Part shown: piece after piece, positions 4,361-63,289 of the stretch
Layout: each line of letters opens with the position of its first letter
Numbering within the stretch: the stretch's first letter is position 1
Assembly (NCBI GenBank): GCA_944548615.1
Contig: OX155965.1
Location: 19,627,101 to 19,691,100, forward strand
Origin: Micropterix aruncella
Lineage: Eukaryota > Arthropoda > Insecta > Lepidoptera > Micropterigidae
Length of the DNA stretch: 64,000 nucleotides
Reading direction: 5' to 3'
Position numbers and translations under genes: made by a program
The notes under the pieces: generated by a model
Told to the model about the DNA's origin: nothing
What the model saw: the letters and a program-made list of their open reading frames with translations, nothing else
The model's database searches: none

Positions 4361-4518
4361 TAGAATATATAAACGTTATTGTGCTAACAAAATTACAACA
4401 TTACACTGGTTTTAAAAAACTTAGAAAAAATTAACACTTTCACTGATATAACGGTCTATCACGTCGTAGGAATTTTCCAGTTTTGTAGCAGAATGTGGGA
4501 TCACATCGTCTTTTATAT

Positions 4519-4541
4519 CTGTGCCTCCTGTGACCGGTGAT
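4519..4541 (+). repeat. Left terminal inverted repeat of the DDE-like transposon
   Basis: CTGTGCCTCCTGTGA then CC then GGTGAT. It matches the reverse complement of 8937-8959 except for the two bases in the middle. Confidence 0.85.
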
Positions 4542-4719
4542 ACAATTGAAAAATCACTACTTTACAGGACAGCCCAAACAATATTTAAAAAATTCTAGTT
4601 CATGAACGAAGTGGGTTAGGTTACATTTAAGTACCTTCTTTTGTAGATCGAAACATCCACTTTCATTCTGTTTTTATATTTTTGTGGTAAATATTATACT
4701 TTTGAAGTAATTCATGAAA

Positions 4720-5075
4720 AACTCGCAGTTGTACCCTTTTTAATTTCTAATATGTGATAAAATTACGTGATAAATGATACAAGTACAGTTAAATCATGTT
4801 GCACATTTATGTTGTCTTTGTGTAAAGTGATATACAAGAAGTGAAAAAATCCAATAACTAATAAGAATATGTTCAAAACACAATGTAGCTCAAACAAATG
4901 ATAAAAATAATACTCCAAAGATTCGAATTTTTTACTTCAGTCTTCTATTTTCATATTTTACCTGAATTGTATCAGTTTGCTAAAATTCTAGTCTTTATAA
5001 AAATGTGTTAAATGATACAAGTCCAGTTATATCCTGCATTAAAATACCTATGTATGGTGGAAATGAATACAAGTT
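4720..5075. repeat. Left subterminal motif cluster of the transposon
   Basis: Repeated variants of a motif close to GTGNAAAGTGATACAAGT occur here. Positions are about 4768-4795 (gataaatgatacaagt), 4819-4840 (gtgtaaagtgatataca), 5004-5030 (gtgttaaatgatacaagt) and 5056-5075 (gtggaaatgaatacaagt). An AACTCGCAGTTGTACCC block lies at 4730, and its counterpart, inverted, at the right end. Such arrays usually serve as transposase binding sites. That role is inferred. Confidence 0.65.
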
Positions 5076-5526
5076 TTAGAAAAATACTTAACGTTTATTA
5101 AAGTCTTCAAAATTATGAAATTACTTACAAATAAGGCACAGTTTTATCAAAATTATAAGAAGTAAATAGAGATCTTTTTAAATGCAATTAGTCTTAAACT
5201 TAAATACTTAGAAATGACACAGATCAATCTTACGCAGCTATCACAATAATCAAAGTGAACCTACTCAGTACAAAACATAACAGCACAGCCATTGTGTGAA
5301 TCCTTAAAAAAATCTAGAAAAATAATAAACATCAAAATTGCTAACACTTTAAAACTTACACAGTACAGTTAACAGCTGTTAACCTATCCTATAGGCAGTA
5401 ATTCGACTCTATGAGTGAGGTAAAAGAATGAAGAGAACAAAGAAGTACGTAGGTACCTACTTAAATCAAAATAAAACCTTTAATAGGTCTTGGGAGTTAG
5501 ATGAACATAACTATCATATCATAAAA

Positions 5527-7848
5527 TTACTCATCATCAGAATCATCATCATTATCCGGAGCAGTGTCTTTGACATCATTCTTGCAGCTCAGACTTCTGT
5601 AAAACTCATGAGAGCTCTCATGAATAAAGCACAGCAAATCCAATAGATCCTTCTTCTTTTCGGTTGAAATAGTAATCTTGGAATGGTAGGCTTTCGGTAC
5701 TGTATTTATTGTAATCATATCGTAAGCTTTACCCCGCTTAGAACAATCCATGTTCATGTACTCAACATTCTTGAATTCTTTTTTGTAAGAAAAACGGGAC
5801 ATGTTTTCTTTGGTATACAAAACAGATCGAACGTCGCACCACAGAAATTTTTCATTGTCTGTATTGGTTTTCCTGAGAGTATAACATTGTTTTGAAAAAA
5901 TGTTGAAATCGTAGAACATATCACGAGTCATCTCGATAACAGTGAACTTCGCTGTTTTGTTTGAAGCTGTACGCACTAGCTGGTACCAATCTCTTGGCAA
6001 GTGAATATCCATACTCGTGTGCTTCTTCTTACGCTCAATCAACGCATGGTCGGTGTCAGCCTCCATGTGAGTATGACCGGGTACGAGAAATTTATGTTCA
6101 ATAGATTGTAATTGAGGGGATAGTTTAGCCACTAGCATCAACATTGTTGTAACAATCGAATTCTTGTTTTGACCCGGGCAACTATCTGAGTACATGATCA
6201 GCTTCTTGGCGTTTGGGTTTAAATGCGGCAGTTGATTTATGATAAAATCGTATAGACATGAAGCTATGTCGTTCGCTCCTCTATTCCCTTCACACTCCGG
6301 CCACATGTAGCAAAACGCTTTGTTTGTTTTTAGATCATGTATGGTTAGATTGTACGTCCATAGCTGTCTCTTGTAAAATGCTACATTCGTTTGCAAGTGT
6401 GGGGTGGGCAAACATTGTTGCAAATCAAATGTTATTATGTACCATTACATCATCGCATGTCTGAGCCAGGTGTTTATCTTTTTTCTTTTCTTCGTAAGCA
6501 GCCTTAAATGCTTCTTGGTGCTCTTCGAGTGCCTTCGTCAAATCTGCAGCCTGTGCCTCGGTTGCGTACTTAAGTTTCATATTTATGGAGTCACATTTAG
6601 AACAAGTATCTAATGATGGTTTTTTGAAAGACAAATTCATGGTATCAAATACCTTTTAGAAAATGGTTTTGCTGACTGGAGTTTCTGTCTTCAATTTGTA
6701 CGAATTATAAAGAACTTGTAAGTTGAGTTCAGAATTCAAGAATTTCTTAGTCGTTTTGTTACGGCCGTAGTGGCTTTCTGTGCAAGGGAAACAGGCAATA
6801 TGAGCTTTATTTCCTTTAGTTTGAAATCAGGAATCGACTTACCGACTCGACGTTTACGTGGTGGAAGGTGACCGCCATTGTCCCGTAGTTTTTCGCAAAT
6901 CGTTTGTAGAAATTTATGACTTTCGTCGAAAGTCTTCAAAAGACATCCTTTACAAATTTGATGTTTTGTTAGATCAGAACTTTGAACGAAGTATCTAAAG
7001 CTGACGTTGCGTTTTTTCTTTGGAGAAGACCTTGACGTTTTTTTTCCGCAAACTTCAATGCATTTCGCCATATAATCGATCCTACTTTCATAACTTCCCA
7101 GACTCCAATATGTATCGAAAAGATTTTTCCTTACATGCAATGGTAGCCTATCTTTGCACTTCTTACGACAGTTGTCTAGATCACGTAATTCACGACTTTT
7201 CTTAGTTTTTCCTGACTTTGTTGTGTATTCCAAGCCAGTGTTACGAAAAAGTTTTCTCTTTACTCTATCATGTCTTCTTTCTTTCTCACTTTTTCTTGTT
7301 TTTTTCTTTTTTCCGCCACTATTCATACCGCTATTTTTCCAGAAGGAATCAGCGGGAGCATTCTCTGATATGCTCGCATTATTTGGAGATGGTGTTTCAG
7401 GAACCGTAATATTATTTTCTGATGTAGCCGTTTTCTTTCTTCTCTTTTTAACCGGAGTTCTTTCGTCATTAGTGGATGAGGAAGATTCATCAGTACCGCA
7501 AATGTAATCATCACTGCTAGATGATCCAAAATCACCATCGGTTGATGAACCTGCATCTGTCAAATCATCTAACAGGTTTTCGGAAGCATTTACATTTGTT
7601 TTGTTCGTCTTATCGTTGTCAATAACCATTTCTGTTGAATTATCTGAAGATATTGGATTCTGGTGTTCGTTGATAGTAGGGACTGGACTTTCAATAGACT
7701 TTTCTGGCAGTGATCCTTCAATTGGTTCTCTTACTTCGTATCCGTAGCCGCATTCATTGGTATTATTATTTTGTTCTGTTCGTTTAATTTCAGCTTCGAT
7801 GGGGTATTGAGAACTCATGTTTGCTGAGTCATTAGTGGCTAAATCCAT
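5527..7848 (-). pseudogene. DDE-like transposase (DUF7869-type), three lesions
   Basis: One broken gene, read right to left. The first ATG is at 7848. A splice acceptor (TTTATTTTTGTTTCAG) ends at 7882 just upstream, so a 5' leader intron is likely. The first part (7848-6830) has an acidic Ser/Asp-rich segment (about residues 80-125), a basic KKRRKK stretch, a Cys-containing region (DLDNCRKKCKDRLP, YWSLGSYESRIDYM) and HQICKGCLLKTF. The next parts contain a CFPCTESHYGR block and KKPSLDTCSKCDSIN. The C-terminal domain (6420-5527) shows the probable acidic triad: Asp of TIHD (6336-6334), Asp of [12 protein letters not shown] (6186-6184), and [15 protein letters not shown] (about 6078-6034). It ends in an Asp-rich tail, with the stop at 5529-5527. 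Lesions: a frameshift between about 6830 and 6814, an in-frame TAA at 6658-6656 between flanking conserved sequence, and a frameshift at about 6440-6433. Three separate short genes would be a misreading. The family name is from memory. Confidence 0.85.
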
Positions 7849-8239
7849 TATTTTAGCTATTCGGGATTTCGGAAACGTCAACTGAAACAAAAATAAACGT
7901 CTGTACTGTAAGAAGGTACGTACTTACCGGTTTTAATTGAGCAATAATTGTAAGAAAACTCTTTAGAATCAGAGTACGGAAAAAATAATTATGTATCTCT
8001 AAACTACTGATAGTTAGTACTGATAGATAGTAAAAAAACATCAAAAGTAGGTTAACCAAAAAAGCGGAAAATCACTTTGAGTAGGTAGTCAATCGTGAAT
8101 CAAATTAATAGGAACAAAATAGCAAAAGTAAAGATTAGTACCTTGACTATGTTTACATTACAATAGGTACCTACCTATCTATTTTGTGTCAAGTGATTTA
8201 ATTCAATAATGAAACAAAAATCCAAAACTATGCAATTTC

Positions 8240-8936
8240 GTGTAAAATGATACATCTAACAACTTACGCGTCGATCCATGGCGACTTCGGACGTGACCAA
8301 GCTTCATAAAGGCCGCAGCGACACTAACGCCCGCGCATCTCCTACCCCGCGTCACGCCCTCACTTCGCCTCGCGCACCCCCGCCACTCTCGTCATGTTCG
8401 TACTTGTATCACATAGCACATCTAGTAATTAATAAAAAAAAACAAATCTGGTTTGAGTTTTAGATACAACTCAATTTATATTCGTTTACACATAAAAAAT
8501 TCTTTGTGTCGAATGATGTAAGTCGAGATGCATCACTTATCACAAATCAGGCACAACTTTAGATTCGGATTAGTAGGTACATGTTGAGTTATACCCTAAT
8601 CAGTATGGAGAAAAATTGGTGCAAAGTGATATAACTCTAAATATATCAATATTCACGATAAATATACTGAAAAATAAAGTGTGTAAATTAATATAATCCC
8701 TCTTATACCACGAGGCACAAAAAAAAATGTGTGAAGCAATGACCTAAAGGGGTTACGACTTGACTTATATCTAAATTCACGATATTTTTTCCGAAATTCT
8801 GTCAGTTATATCACTTGGCACCAAATTATCTCCGAAACTATAGCAGATAGAAGGACTTGAGTTGTACCAAAAAAATCGTAATTTTTTTCTGACAATTTCT
8901 ATGTAAAAATCACAAAAAGGGTACAACTCGAGTTAA
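8240..8936. repeat. Right subterminal motif cluster of the transposon
   Basis: The motif family of the left end recurs in both orientations. Positions are about 8240-8259 (gtgtaaaatgatacat), 8404-8412 (cttgtatcaca, inverted), 8506-8525 (gtgtcgaatgatgtaagt), 8619-8638 (gtgcaaagtgatataact), 8803-8825 (agttatatcacttggcac, inverted), 8852-8868 (gacttgagttgtacc) and 8919-8940 (gtacaactcgag). Symmetry with 4720-5075 supports a single element. Confidence 0.65.
8268..8400. other. GC-rich island inside the transposon, upstream of its gene
   Basis: About 130 bp of clearly higher G+C, rich in CG dinucleotides, lies about 420 bp upstream of the transposase ATG between AT-rich flanks. It is open on the plus strand for about 60 codons, but the predicted peptide is low complexity. 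It could be a promoter-proximal CpG-rich segment or foreign filler. I see no recognisable promoter element. Confidence 0.4.
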
Positions 8937-8959
8937 ATCACCTTTCACAGGAGGCACAG
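8937..8959 (-). repeat. Right terminal inverted repeat of the DDE-like transposon
   Basis: ATCACC, TT, then TCACAGGAGGCACAG. It is complementary to 4519-4541. An (ATTTT)n-like tract follows at 8965-8992. Confidence 0.85.
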
Positions 8960-9309
8960 ATATTATTTTATTTTTTATTTTATTTTATTCTGGAATCAAA
9001 CAGAACTACATACAATGCAATAAAAACCTATTTAAAAGTGACAAAAATCCATTAATGTGATTCCGAATATAAAGTATACACAATGAACGCAATATAATTT
9101 TATATTGTTTCCGCTTGAGAATGGGGGGAATCAGGATGGGAAGTGAGGTGAAAGGGAGAGACAAAATAGATAAAAATATATTATGTATGTATATAAATAT
9201 ATTTATATTTAATTTTAGGTATGATATATAGTTATTATAATGAACATACTTGAGATAAAATTATGTCCTTAAACTAAATTAAATGAAATATAATATGTAT
9301 TTCACACGA
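8960..9309. other. AT-rich spacer
   Basis: It contains a TTTTA-type simple tract at 8965-8992 and otherwise nothing recognised. Confidence 0.5.
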
Positions 9310-9690
9310 CTGTCCAACAAAAAAGGAATGTAATGTGTTCAGGTTTCATCTATGTATGTTTTCCGTTACTCCGTTACTGTTTTCCATAACTTTTAAACGG
9401 TTAAACCGATTTAGCAGCGTGCGGTATTGTTAGATTCGTTATGCACTCGGGCATTATATTTCCAAATATCAAGTAAGTACATAGTTGTCTAAATATCTAA
9501 ATGTCAATAAATTAACAAAAATATATGTGAAATGAAAGGTTTGATTGAGTAGATTCCGGAAATATACATTTATTTATATGGATAAATACATAAAACAAAA
9601 AATATTTCATTAAAAACCGTAATAAAAATTATTATAAATACAATCAATAACGAGTCACTTTCAGTAACGACAGTCGTGTTTTATCCCTTA
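9310..9690 (-). repeat. Dispersed repeat B, copy 1
   Basis: Its reverse complement aligns with 40031-40390 along most of its length. Shared blocks are 'ttatccatataaata', 'tttccggaat-tactcaatca', a 'cactcgg' block and 'aaatcggtt-aa-cgttta-aagttatgg'. The 'tcggtt-aaccgttta-aagttatgg-ggaa' segment near one end is a phrase widespread in insect non-autonomous repeats. It is non-coding. Confidence 0.7.
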
Positions 9691-39245: not shown

Positions 39246-40030
39246 TTTTAGGAAAGTTAATGAAATTGGGTGAACTAATCATACATTACATTTAAATCGG
39301 GCCTGACGACATTTCGGAGACGAAATTGGGTACTATACGCCTTGTTCACGTCGACAATAAACCAGTTGGCGGAGAACTAAGTGGGGAAATCGATAGTAGC
39401 GCTGGAAATACTTCTGTCCAGGATTGAGTTCTCTGGGGCGTTAGTGATGATGGTGAACACTGGTATTGTCAGCGTATATAAATAGTTTATCTACCTTAGA
39501 AGAATATCTACCTACGAAAAATAAAAAGTTTCCAATGGTAGAGCCATGGGGTACGCCAATCGACGAAACGTTTCGAAATACGTTATCTAAAATCTAAACG
39601 ACGACGTGTAATCACTAACAAGCCAAACTTTGCATTCAAGTTAGTATTTGAAAAGACAACATTTCACGTTGAATTTACCCTTTCGCATCCCTTACTTTAT
39701 TTGTTACTACATTGAAATGGGAATCTCTGTGAAGGTTCTTCTTTCACAATTATATGGTGCCTCTTAAAGCGACAAGCTCCCGCCGTTACTTAATGTACAA
39801 TTTGCCTTTCGAGAGAAAGGAGATTCGCAATTAAAAGAGAGTATTTCCTCTGCCTGTTATTTCATTTGATATAACTGCAAAAGATAATAGATATAATAAA
39901 GAAAGAACATTTATCACGTCGCTCGTCGAACCTTTCGCTGGATCGCTAAGGCATCTAATGTGGAGATATAAGTGATTTCTCGGGTTTACAAATATGAAAA
40001 AGATAATACAACAAGTAAATATATATATAA
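39246..40030. other. Gene-free region
   Basis: No feature recognised. Confidence 0.5.
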
Positions 40031-40390
40031 GAATAAAAAACACGACTACCGTTACAAAAAGTGTATATATATTGTATTTATAATTATTTTTATTGCTGTT
40101 TATTTTATGAAATATTTGTGGTTTATATATTTATCCATATAAATAGATGTTTATTTCCGGAATGTACTCAATCAGACCTTTTATTTGACACTAAACAGAA
40201 AATATGTACATTTGGACATTTCGACAAGTATTTTTTTTTACATTTGGACAGTTTAGTTACCATATAACACTCGGGGTGACATAACTATTCTAAGAATATC
40301 ACAGACTTTCAAATCGGTTCAAACGTTTAGAAGTTATGATGGAATAAAAAATCAGGGTTTCATCATTAATACATGCCGGTTTTTTCCTAG
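40031..40390 (+). repeat. Dispersed repeat B, copy 2
   Basis: It is the reverse complement of 9310-9690 in overall order. It starts around 'aaacacgac--ccgttac' and ends around 'aaatcggttcaaacgtttagaagttatg'. Confidence 0.7.
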
Positions 40391-40689: not shown

Positions 40690-40845
40690 CCGTACGACAC
40701 TCGGGAGGACAAAACGATTCTAACAATACGACACTTCTAAATCGGTTCAACCGTTTAGAAGTTATGGCGGAATAAAAATACGGAAAACATACATAGATGA
40801 ATCCTGAATACAAAAAACTCTTTTTTGGGCAGTAGTCTAAAAAGC
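40690..40845 (+). repeat. Dispersed repeat B, 3' part, copy 3
   Basis: It shares 'cactcggg-ggacaaaacgattctaacaatacgac', 'aaatcggttcaaccgtttagaagttatgg' and 'ggaaaacatacatagatgaa-cctgaa' with the other copies. It is the best preserved version of this end. Confidence 0.7.
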
Positions 40846-45130: not shown

Positions 45131-45140
45131 ATATATTATA

Positions 45141-45790
45141 AAGAAAAATATAAAATACTAAGCAATGTAGAATATAGAAAATTTGGGAGAATTTATACAC
45201 TAAGAGTTACTATTAATTCTTACAAGCTGCAGTTGGTAATATAAATTTGATAACCCTAATAAAATCATTAAAAAGATATTCACAATTAGTTAGTATTTAG
45301 ATAACCATTGCTTGAAAATAGTGCATAGTCAAACTTAATTATAAAAATGAAAAATTTGTAAAATATTGAAATAAAATGGGAACTAAAATACAAGATGGGA
45401 TGAAATATGTAAAATTGTTAACCATAGCTTAATCTCCTGTACAAGCGACACTATATATATATTACGAAGAAAAATATAAAATAGTAAGTAATGTAGAATA
45501 TAGAAAATTTGGGAGAATTTATACACTAAGAGTTACTATTAATTCTTACAAGCTGCCATTGATAATATAAATTTGATAACCCTAATAAAATCATTAAAAA
45601 GATATGCACAATTAGTTAGTATTTAGATAACCATTACTTGAAAATAGTGCGTAGTCAAACTTAATTATAAAAATGAAAAATTTGTAAAATATTAAAATAA
45701 AATGAGAACTAAAATACAAGATGGGATGAAATATATAAAATTGTTAACCATAGCTTAATCTCCTGTACAAGCGACACCATATTTTATAAA
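45141..45790 (+). repeat. 326 bp tandem duplication
   Basis: The two units start with AAGAAAAATATAAAATA at 45141 and 45467 and end with CTCCTGTACAAGCGACAC. They differ at roughly a dozen positions. AT-rich and non-coding. Confidence 0.9.
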
Positions 45791-53740: not shown

Positions 53741-54255
53741 ATGACCGTTGAGGATTTCCCTCGTCGGGAGCCAACCCTGGGTACATCAGCCATGTCATGG
53801 TGAAACTTGAAAGTTGCTATCATAATTGAATGCGTACACAAAATTTTGGGTCTCTGCTGTTGACCGTTGAGGAGTCCCCTCATCGGGGGCCAACCCAGGG
53901 TACATCAGCCATGTCATGGTGAAATTCGAAAGTTGCTATCATAATTTAATGCGTACACAAAATTTTGGGTCTCTGCTGTTGACCGTTGAGGAGTTGCCTC
54001 GTCGGGAGCCAACCCAGGGTACATCAGCCATGTCATGGTGAAACTTGAAAGTTGCTATCATAATTGAATGCGTACACAAAATTTTGGGTCTCTGCTGTTG
54101 ACCGTTGAGGAGTTACCTCGTCGGGAGCCAACCCAAGGTACATCAGCCATGTCATGGTGAAACTTGAAAGTTGCTATCATAATTGAATGCGTACACAAAA
54201 TTTTGGGTCCCTGCTGTTGACCGTTGAGGAGTTCCCTCGTAGGGAGCCAACCCTG
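53741..54255 (+). repeat. 119 bp minisatellite, about 4.3 copies
   Basis: TGCGTACACAAAATTTTGGG occurs at 53831, 53950, 54069 and 54188, exactly 119 bp apart. Each unit also has 'gctgttgaccgttgagga', 'cgtcgggagccaaccc' and 'catcagccatgtcatggtgaaa'. Neighbouring units differ by only a few bases, suggesting recent expansion or gene conversion. Confidence 0.95.
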
Positions 54256-54430
54256 GGTGGACGGATTTCAACCACAATATTTTCAGCTCATGCCATGACC
54301 AAATGATGCCTGCATGCCAAATTTCAGCTCAATCGGTTGAAGCGTTTCGGCGCTATCGTCGGAGAATACACACAGGCAGACACATAGAAATGCGTACACA
54401 ATACTTTCCTTGGCAGGAAAGTAAAAATTG
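54256..54430 (+). repeat. 3' part of the minisatellite-bearing element
   Basis: It follows the last unit directly and contains 'aaatttcagctcaatcggttgaagcg' and a closing 'ctttccttggcaggaaag' palindrome (54405-54423). Both are common features of insect non-autonomous repeats. Together with 53105-53515 it may be the two ends of one element. Confidence 0.5.

Positions 54431-62765: not shown

Positions 62766-63289
<524 letters not shown>

Follow-up and report, generated by a model that had tools for sequence, protein, structure and literature searches.

What kind of element occupies positions 4519-8959 of a 64-kb stretch of Micropterix aruncella DNA (the window, C21:19627101-19691100 of a 1.08-Gb assembly in 742 contigs), and which protein moves it? 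An earlier reading, made from the letters of the window without any database (the sequence-only reading), had described perfect 15-bp inverted ends, a possible ATAT target duplication and one gene between the ends, and had taken the gene for the transposase of a cut-and-paste family. Further analysis leaves us with little doubt that this segment is one copy, now damaged, from a young family of autonomous DNA transposons, in which the lone gene encodes a transposase of the RNase H fold with DUF7869, a domain annotated to date as being of unknown function, as its catalytic part.

Ends, genomic copies and target site

The inverted ends of the window copy are CTGTGCCTCCTGTGA. On recomputation, the values first given for them were returned unchanged, with 15 of 15 positions paired between 4519-4533 and 8945-8959 and 21 of 23 over 23 bp. 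ATAT stands immediately outside both ends, and a repeat finder that counts these flanking letters reports arms at 4515-4541 and 8937-8963 (27 nt, 93% complementary). The single gene between the ends lies on the minus strand and matches DUF7869; the only other stop-to-stop frame of at least 80 amino acids within the element (137 amino acids) runs antisense to it, and an Rfam scan of window positions 4400-9100 gave no match.

The genome was searched with a degenerate pattern fitting both ends, at zero mismatches and with the reversed pattern as a control. The exact pattern occurs 86 times (45 forward, 41 reverse), against 0 + 0 in the control, and 82 of these ends form 41 inward-facing left/right pairs, 21 oriented one way and 20 the other. 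Twenty-six pairs span exactly 4438 bp, the range being 4410-4582 bp, and an additional pair on C4 is completed by an end bearing one mismatch. A nucleotide search with the left 246 bp produced 93 candidates, of which the best 40 were scored, all at 100% identity after rounding; the 20 copies retrieved with their flanks are without exception full-length (4410-4459 bp) and 99.1-99.8% identical to the window copy. Short derivatives of the kind called miniature inverted-repeat transposable elements, which the sequence-only reading had envisaged, did not materialize, there being none with exact ends among the 41 pairs. The longest paired copy, of 4582 bp at C20:25299033-25303614, carries an enlarged open frame of 845 amino acids between unequal flanks (AATT/ATAT) and is perhaps a recombinant of two insertions. 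When up to three mismatches are allowed, the genome holds 151 ends, 100 of them listed, and the control none. A right-end version of the pattern gives 82 matches (43 exact, one with a single mismatch and 38 with exactly three); the 38 diverged ends are scattered, none lying by eye within 10 kb of another listed right-type end, and possibly mark a family that is related or non-autonomous.

When the genome was searched at protein level (3106 candidates, the best 58 scored and rows merged), at least 45 copies of the family were recovered. The frame of 772 amino acids is fully open in 36 of the 45, and two more (on C3 and at 25.3 Mb on C20) are open with in-frame length changes. The remaining seven are broken, the window copy among them: its gene, tacitly assumed to be intact in the sequence-only reading, contains a premature stop as well as indels that shift the frame. 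Nonetheless, other copies of the gene between the same ends, intact paralogues included, are found elsewhere in the genome, as that reading had anticipated. Across 21 aligned copies there are only 39 substitutions from the majority, or 1.9 per copy (0.042%), every one of them confined to a single copy, and three copies have none at all. Judged by these sequences, the family has spread recently, in a burst that took it to some 45 places. Three pairs of copies lie 8, 47 and 72 kb apart (C43:16838700 and C43:16846946; C21:19585172 and the window copy; C2:28974507 and C2:29046673), against 0.15 pairs expected within 75 kb (P about 0.001, with a threshold chosen after viewing the data and the sizes of six contigs assumed). 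This excess suggests local hopping. Flanks of 1.0-1.6 kb, compared within the C21 and within the C2 pair with the low-complexity filter on, show no mutual match, so these pairs do not resemble segmental duplicates.

Flanks were read for 36 of the 41 exact-end pairs, and the 4 bp on either side are identical in 35 of them (ATAT in 24, AATT in five, ATTT in three, AAAT in two and AGTT in one). For 21 of the 36, the choice was not neutral with respect to ATAT: one is the window copy, and the others came from a search with ATAT in the query. The remaining 15 comprise ATAT in three, AATT in five, ATTT in three, AAAT in two, AGTT in one and an unequal pair. Since the sample of 36 takes in nearly all of the 41 pairs, ATAT still ranks as the commonest site despite this bias. 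Duplications of the form AWWT (W being A or T) account for 34 of the 35, while AWWT makes up 5.4% of the 4-mers in the remainder of the window. Twelve of the read sites fall within (AT)n arrays. At the 24 sites outside such arrays, the flanks match over 4 bp in 23 and over 5 bp in none, and the same comparison at ten other offsets finds matches in zero to two of the 24. That ATAT might be part of the element's own ends was considered and rejected: it lies outside the ends proper, since AATT, ATTT, AAAT and AGTT sites adjoin identical ends.

Two empty sites yield the same boundaries and a 4-bp duplication, in favour of the sequence-only reading, which had proposed the comparison. At locus L023, three tandem units are present, of which one is interrupted by the element; the neighbouring two, which are intact, carry a single ATAT. 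At locus L037, the junction aligns gaplessly with the window segments 40010-40355 and 9297-9684, both related repeats, a comparison that is weaker evidence because the identity is only 77% and 73%. These two segments, with a further piece at 40696-40842, are diverged copies of the repeat that hosts the L037 insertion.

The DUF7869 protein and its predicted catalytic core

Window positions 5530-6444 match Pfam PF25273 (DUF7869) with an E-value of 1.5e-7 and 31.6 bits, and the intact protein scores 27.4 bits, the gathering cutoff being 26. Domain matches below cutoff (weak ones to NARF and TPR, and one NCBIfam) were not used, nor was a ribosomal protein matched among solved structures at an E-value of 0.36. 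Structure prediction assigns to the DUF7869 region, with high confidence, the RNase H core of transposases and integrases, in which three acidic residues are positioned as in Mos1 and retroviral integrase and are invariant among aligned relatives. Neither Mos1 nor retroviral integrase matches the element's protein in sequence among solved structures, and the distance from the second to the third acidic residue differs from that in their cores (43 residues in the element, if the third is Asp597). The catalytic motifs named in the sequence-only reading survive in part: the Asp of YSDSC is invariant in 84 of 84 aligned relatives, whereas the IHD Asp is shared by just 56 of the 84 and was rejected as a catalytic residue, the first invariant Asp of the RNase H fold lying instead in FDLQQ. 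A structural comparison with viral proteins returned nothing specific.

The protein may be longer than its open frame. A predicted first coding exon with a Kozak-like start (GCCATGG) and the codons MDRR, joined through a TTTCAG acceptor in phase with the long frame, would extend it from 772 to 787 amino acids. Three of 12 relatives inspected (P0008, P0009 and P0011) have a similar N-terminal stretch, MxxRxRIxxMxxL; for most of the others, the closest included, the start is predicted near the inner ATG.

Relatives of the protein are numerous in butterflies, moths, beetles, aphids, stick insects and other insects, in keeping with the multi-copy, uncharacterised family invoked by the sequence-only reading. 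The protein searches listed the best 120 of 250, 120 of 144 and 120 of 311 passing matches, and the closest named relative among the matches listed is a Parnassius apollo protein (84% identity). The insect DUF7869 proteins have the motifs FDLQQ, SD.C.GQN.N and GH(T/S)....D in common with that of the element. One of them, P0132 of Chilo suppressalis (1546 amino acids), is a gene prediction, named as a reverse transcriptase, in which reverse transcriptase, RNase H and DUF7869 domains are fused, probably one element inside another. Of three pattern matches in viral contigs, none was confirmed as a virus-borne relative. The M. aruncella genome itself holds a second related family of at least eight loci (Table 1), 42% identical over residues 143-769, with uninterrupted frames of 670 amino acids and near-equal scores; with 58 of the 3106 candidates scored, the family may be much larger. 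An older relative at C51:17345561-17347084, 65% identical and with many stops, is a relic of an earlier wave.

Outside its gene, the element is rich in the motif GTGNNRRRTGATAYAA. At up to two mismatches the motif occurs 22 times in the window against 7.4 expected. Fifteen of these sites fall within the 4.4-kb element. Of the 15, 14 avoid the gene; these occur near the left and right ends alike and in either orientation, and each inverted end overlaps one motif copy with its inner part. A weight matrix, circular in this use because it was trained on the element, finds at a single threshold eight sites in the left kb of the element, 14 in its right kb, two between them and 30 in the other 59.5 kb of the window. 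We regard the arrays as likely transposase-binding sites. Under the mechanism that we propose, transposase from an intact copy would bind the subterminal GTGNNRRRTGATAYAA repeats and pair the two ends, after which the RNase H triad would cut at CTGTG and the 3' ends would be joined to the strands of an AWWT target with a 4-bp stagger. Movement would follow a cut-and-paste route that includes some hopping to nearby sites.

Affinities and competing explanations

Several familiar groups of transposons can be set beside the element. piggyBac and Sola3 elements target TTAA; a target of that type was rejected, with no TTAA among the 36 read sites. Tc1/mariner elements duplicate a 2-bp TA rather than a 4-bp AWWT. 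hAT and CACTA-type elements possess subterminal arrays that bind transposase, and the element is like them in having a short motif repeated in both orientations near both ends; it differs in its ends, duplication length and transposase family. The first comparison offered by the sequence-only reading was with Sola, on account of its 4-bp targets, and here the agreement is considerable. In the accessible portions of the published descriptions, Sola2 elements of dictyostelids have AWWT duplications (ATAT, AAAT and ATTT), as the element does, and inverted repeats of 12-21 bp (PMC3627910), while Sola elements in general have a transposase with three catalytic aspartates (DDD), 4-bp duplications, a length of mostly 2-9 kb and inverted repeats of 11-1124 bp (PMC10741241). 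The short inverted repeats of the element and its size of 4410-4582 bp are within these Sola ranges. Its single AGTT and several AATT sites, its want of a Fanzor gene and its long subterminal arrays, which go unmentioned in those portions of the Sola2 descriptions, are differences. Of the known kinds Sola2 is the closest, and, to judge by these published descriptions, the element is probably a member of it.

The competing classification would make DUF7869 transposases a DDD superfamily of their own that shares with Sola2 only the 4-bp AWWT duplication. In its favour, the Pfam label for the domain denotes unknown function only, no Sola-, transposase- or dictyostelid-named protein appeared among the matches listed in the protein searches, and a literature search that reached few subscription papers found none naming DUF7869 and none for the catalytic motif strings. 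AWWT duplications, inverted-repeat length, overall size and a DDD-like signature all fit Sola and Sola2 as far as the portions consulted describe them (PMC3627910, PMC10741241), and Sola elements are listed, in the accessible parts of two reports, among the moth transposons of baculovirus populations (PMC4735498, PMC8634313). We consider a separate superfamily unlikely. Equally unlikely is its broader form, in which DUF7869 would define a large unnamed arthropod superfamily apart from Sola2, typified by AWWT targets, arrays at both ends and local hopping, with at least one family still jumping in this genome.

That the DUF7869 protein moves the element is very probable. Were the gene instead a passenger, with another transposase acting in trans, it could break in a copy that retains good ends, as it has in the window copy, and the role that we assign to the protein derives from its sequence and a structural model. 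Yet the element contains no other long gene; this one specifies an RNase H core whose acidic residues are invariant, and its frame is still open in most copies. The genome holds, besides, the second related family with its uninterrupted, near-equal-scoring copies; we therefore give the passenger explanation very little weight. Somewhat less remote, albeit still improbable, is the proposal that the copies multiplied replicatively, by copy-out. Many near-identical full-length copies with no excision footprint among them would suit such a route, and a 4-bp duplication does not discriminate between the two. Against it, those eukaryotic DDD/E elements whose inverted repeats and duplications are short have, to our knowledge, proved to be cut-and-paste wherever tested, and the excess of close pairs fits local re-insertion. 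Least credible of all is that segmental duplication or repeats in the assembly account for the copies. Near-identity and the 12 insertions in (AT)n arrays might be read in that way, but exact boundaries with a 4-bp duplication at 35 of 36 read sites already contradict it, and the unmatched flanks of the C21 and C2 pairs speak against it.

A young, autonomous DUF7869 transposon remains our preferred reading, and several observations weigh against it. One duplication (AGTT) departs from the AWWT form, one of the 36 read pairs (the 4582-bp copy) has unequal flanks, and three exact ends, all of them next to an intact gene copy, lack a partner among the matches listed. With 0 synonymous and 20 non-synonymous substitutions and one stop in frame among the copies, selection on individual copies after insertion is invisible, as is expected for new insertions. 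Since the GTGNNRRRTGATAYAA motif was derived from the element itself, its enrichment is descriptive. No excision footprint was seen among the copies read. In the catalytic core, the third residue is probably Asp597 (giving DDD), with Glu604 (giving DDE) as the alternative: both are invariant in alignments A1 and A5, and a distant clade retains Asp597 in 11 of 11 and Glu604 in 9 of 11. Asp414 and Glu517 are likewise invariant among aligned relatives, so invariance alone cannot choose the triad. The best Foldseek E-value for the whole model is 2.9e-4, which is weak alone, and for the core terminase nucleases rank first (5.5e-4). The descriptive footing of the Sola2 placement belongs with these points.

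Relative to the sources searched, the novelty is that DUF7869 is tied to a particular element, active in the recent past, whose ends and target are known; in those sources the insect DUF7869 proteins (PF25273) are gene predictions only, with neither ends nor target site attached. The link between an orphan protein family and a defined element, foreseen in the sequence-only reading, is supported by the ends, the target and at least 45 gene copies. An insect protein family annotated as unknown gains a probable function along with ends and a target site, and DUF7869 genes can accordingly be masked and named as transposases. About 45 near-identical copies, most with intact genes, are a realistic start for biochemical study of this type of transposase; a literature search of titles and the beginnings of abstracts found no biochemical test of a Sola transposase. 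As the copies are near-identical, insertion polymorphism is likely, and the family may be a live source of mutation in M. aruncella.

Features of the locus and its surroundings

Table 1. Coordinates of the transposon copy and its parts (window positions), with genome loci of the second family in the last row
Feature	Position	Strand	Remarks
Complete transposon copy, 4441 bp	4519..8959	.	Commonest length among other copies 4438
Left target-site duplication, ATAT	4515..4518	.	
Right target-site duplication, ATAT	8960..8963	.	
Left terminal inverted repeat	4519..4541	+	First 15 bp perfect; inner part overlaps first subterminal motif copy
Right terminal inverted repeat	8937..8959	-	
Left subterminal array of GTGNNRRRTGATAYAA	4530..5020	.	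5 sites at up to 2 mismatches
Right subterminal array of GTGNNRRRTGATAYAA, both orientations	8186..8948	.	9 sites at up to 2 mismatches
Transposase gene	5527..7848	-	Broken in window copy; 772-amino-acid frame open in 36/45 genome copies
Predicted coding exon 1	8268..8279	-	ATG GAT CGA CGC, then GTAAGT donor; predicted
Predicted intron, 386 bp	7882..8267	-	GTAAGT...TTTCAG; phase 0; predicted
GC-rich (61%), CpG-rich patch	8251..8400	.	At and upstream of predicted exon 1
First catalytic Asp codon	6424..6426	-	D474 of intact protein; FDLQQ, end of beta-1; invariant 84/84
Second catalytic Asp codon	6184..6186	-	D554; YSDSC, end of beta-4; invariant 84/84
Probable third catalytic Asp codon	6055..6057	-	D597; GHTHMEAD, N-terminus of alpha-C; invariant 84/84, 11/11
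Alternative third residue codon	6034..6036	-	E604
Second-family loci	C1:10510133, C1:13396686, C1:17581297, C9:5480987, C9:27910440, C24:25788137, C32:4011878, C32:5140117		

The GC-rich patch could, at a guess, be a promoter or 5' leader. Elsewhere in the window there are two tandem arrays, at 45131-45782 and 53742-54258, with periods of 326 (2 copies) and 119 (4.3 copies), and at 62977-63283 a 307-bp AT microsatellite, the kind of site that the element has often hit.

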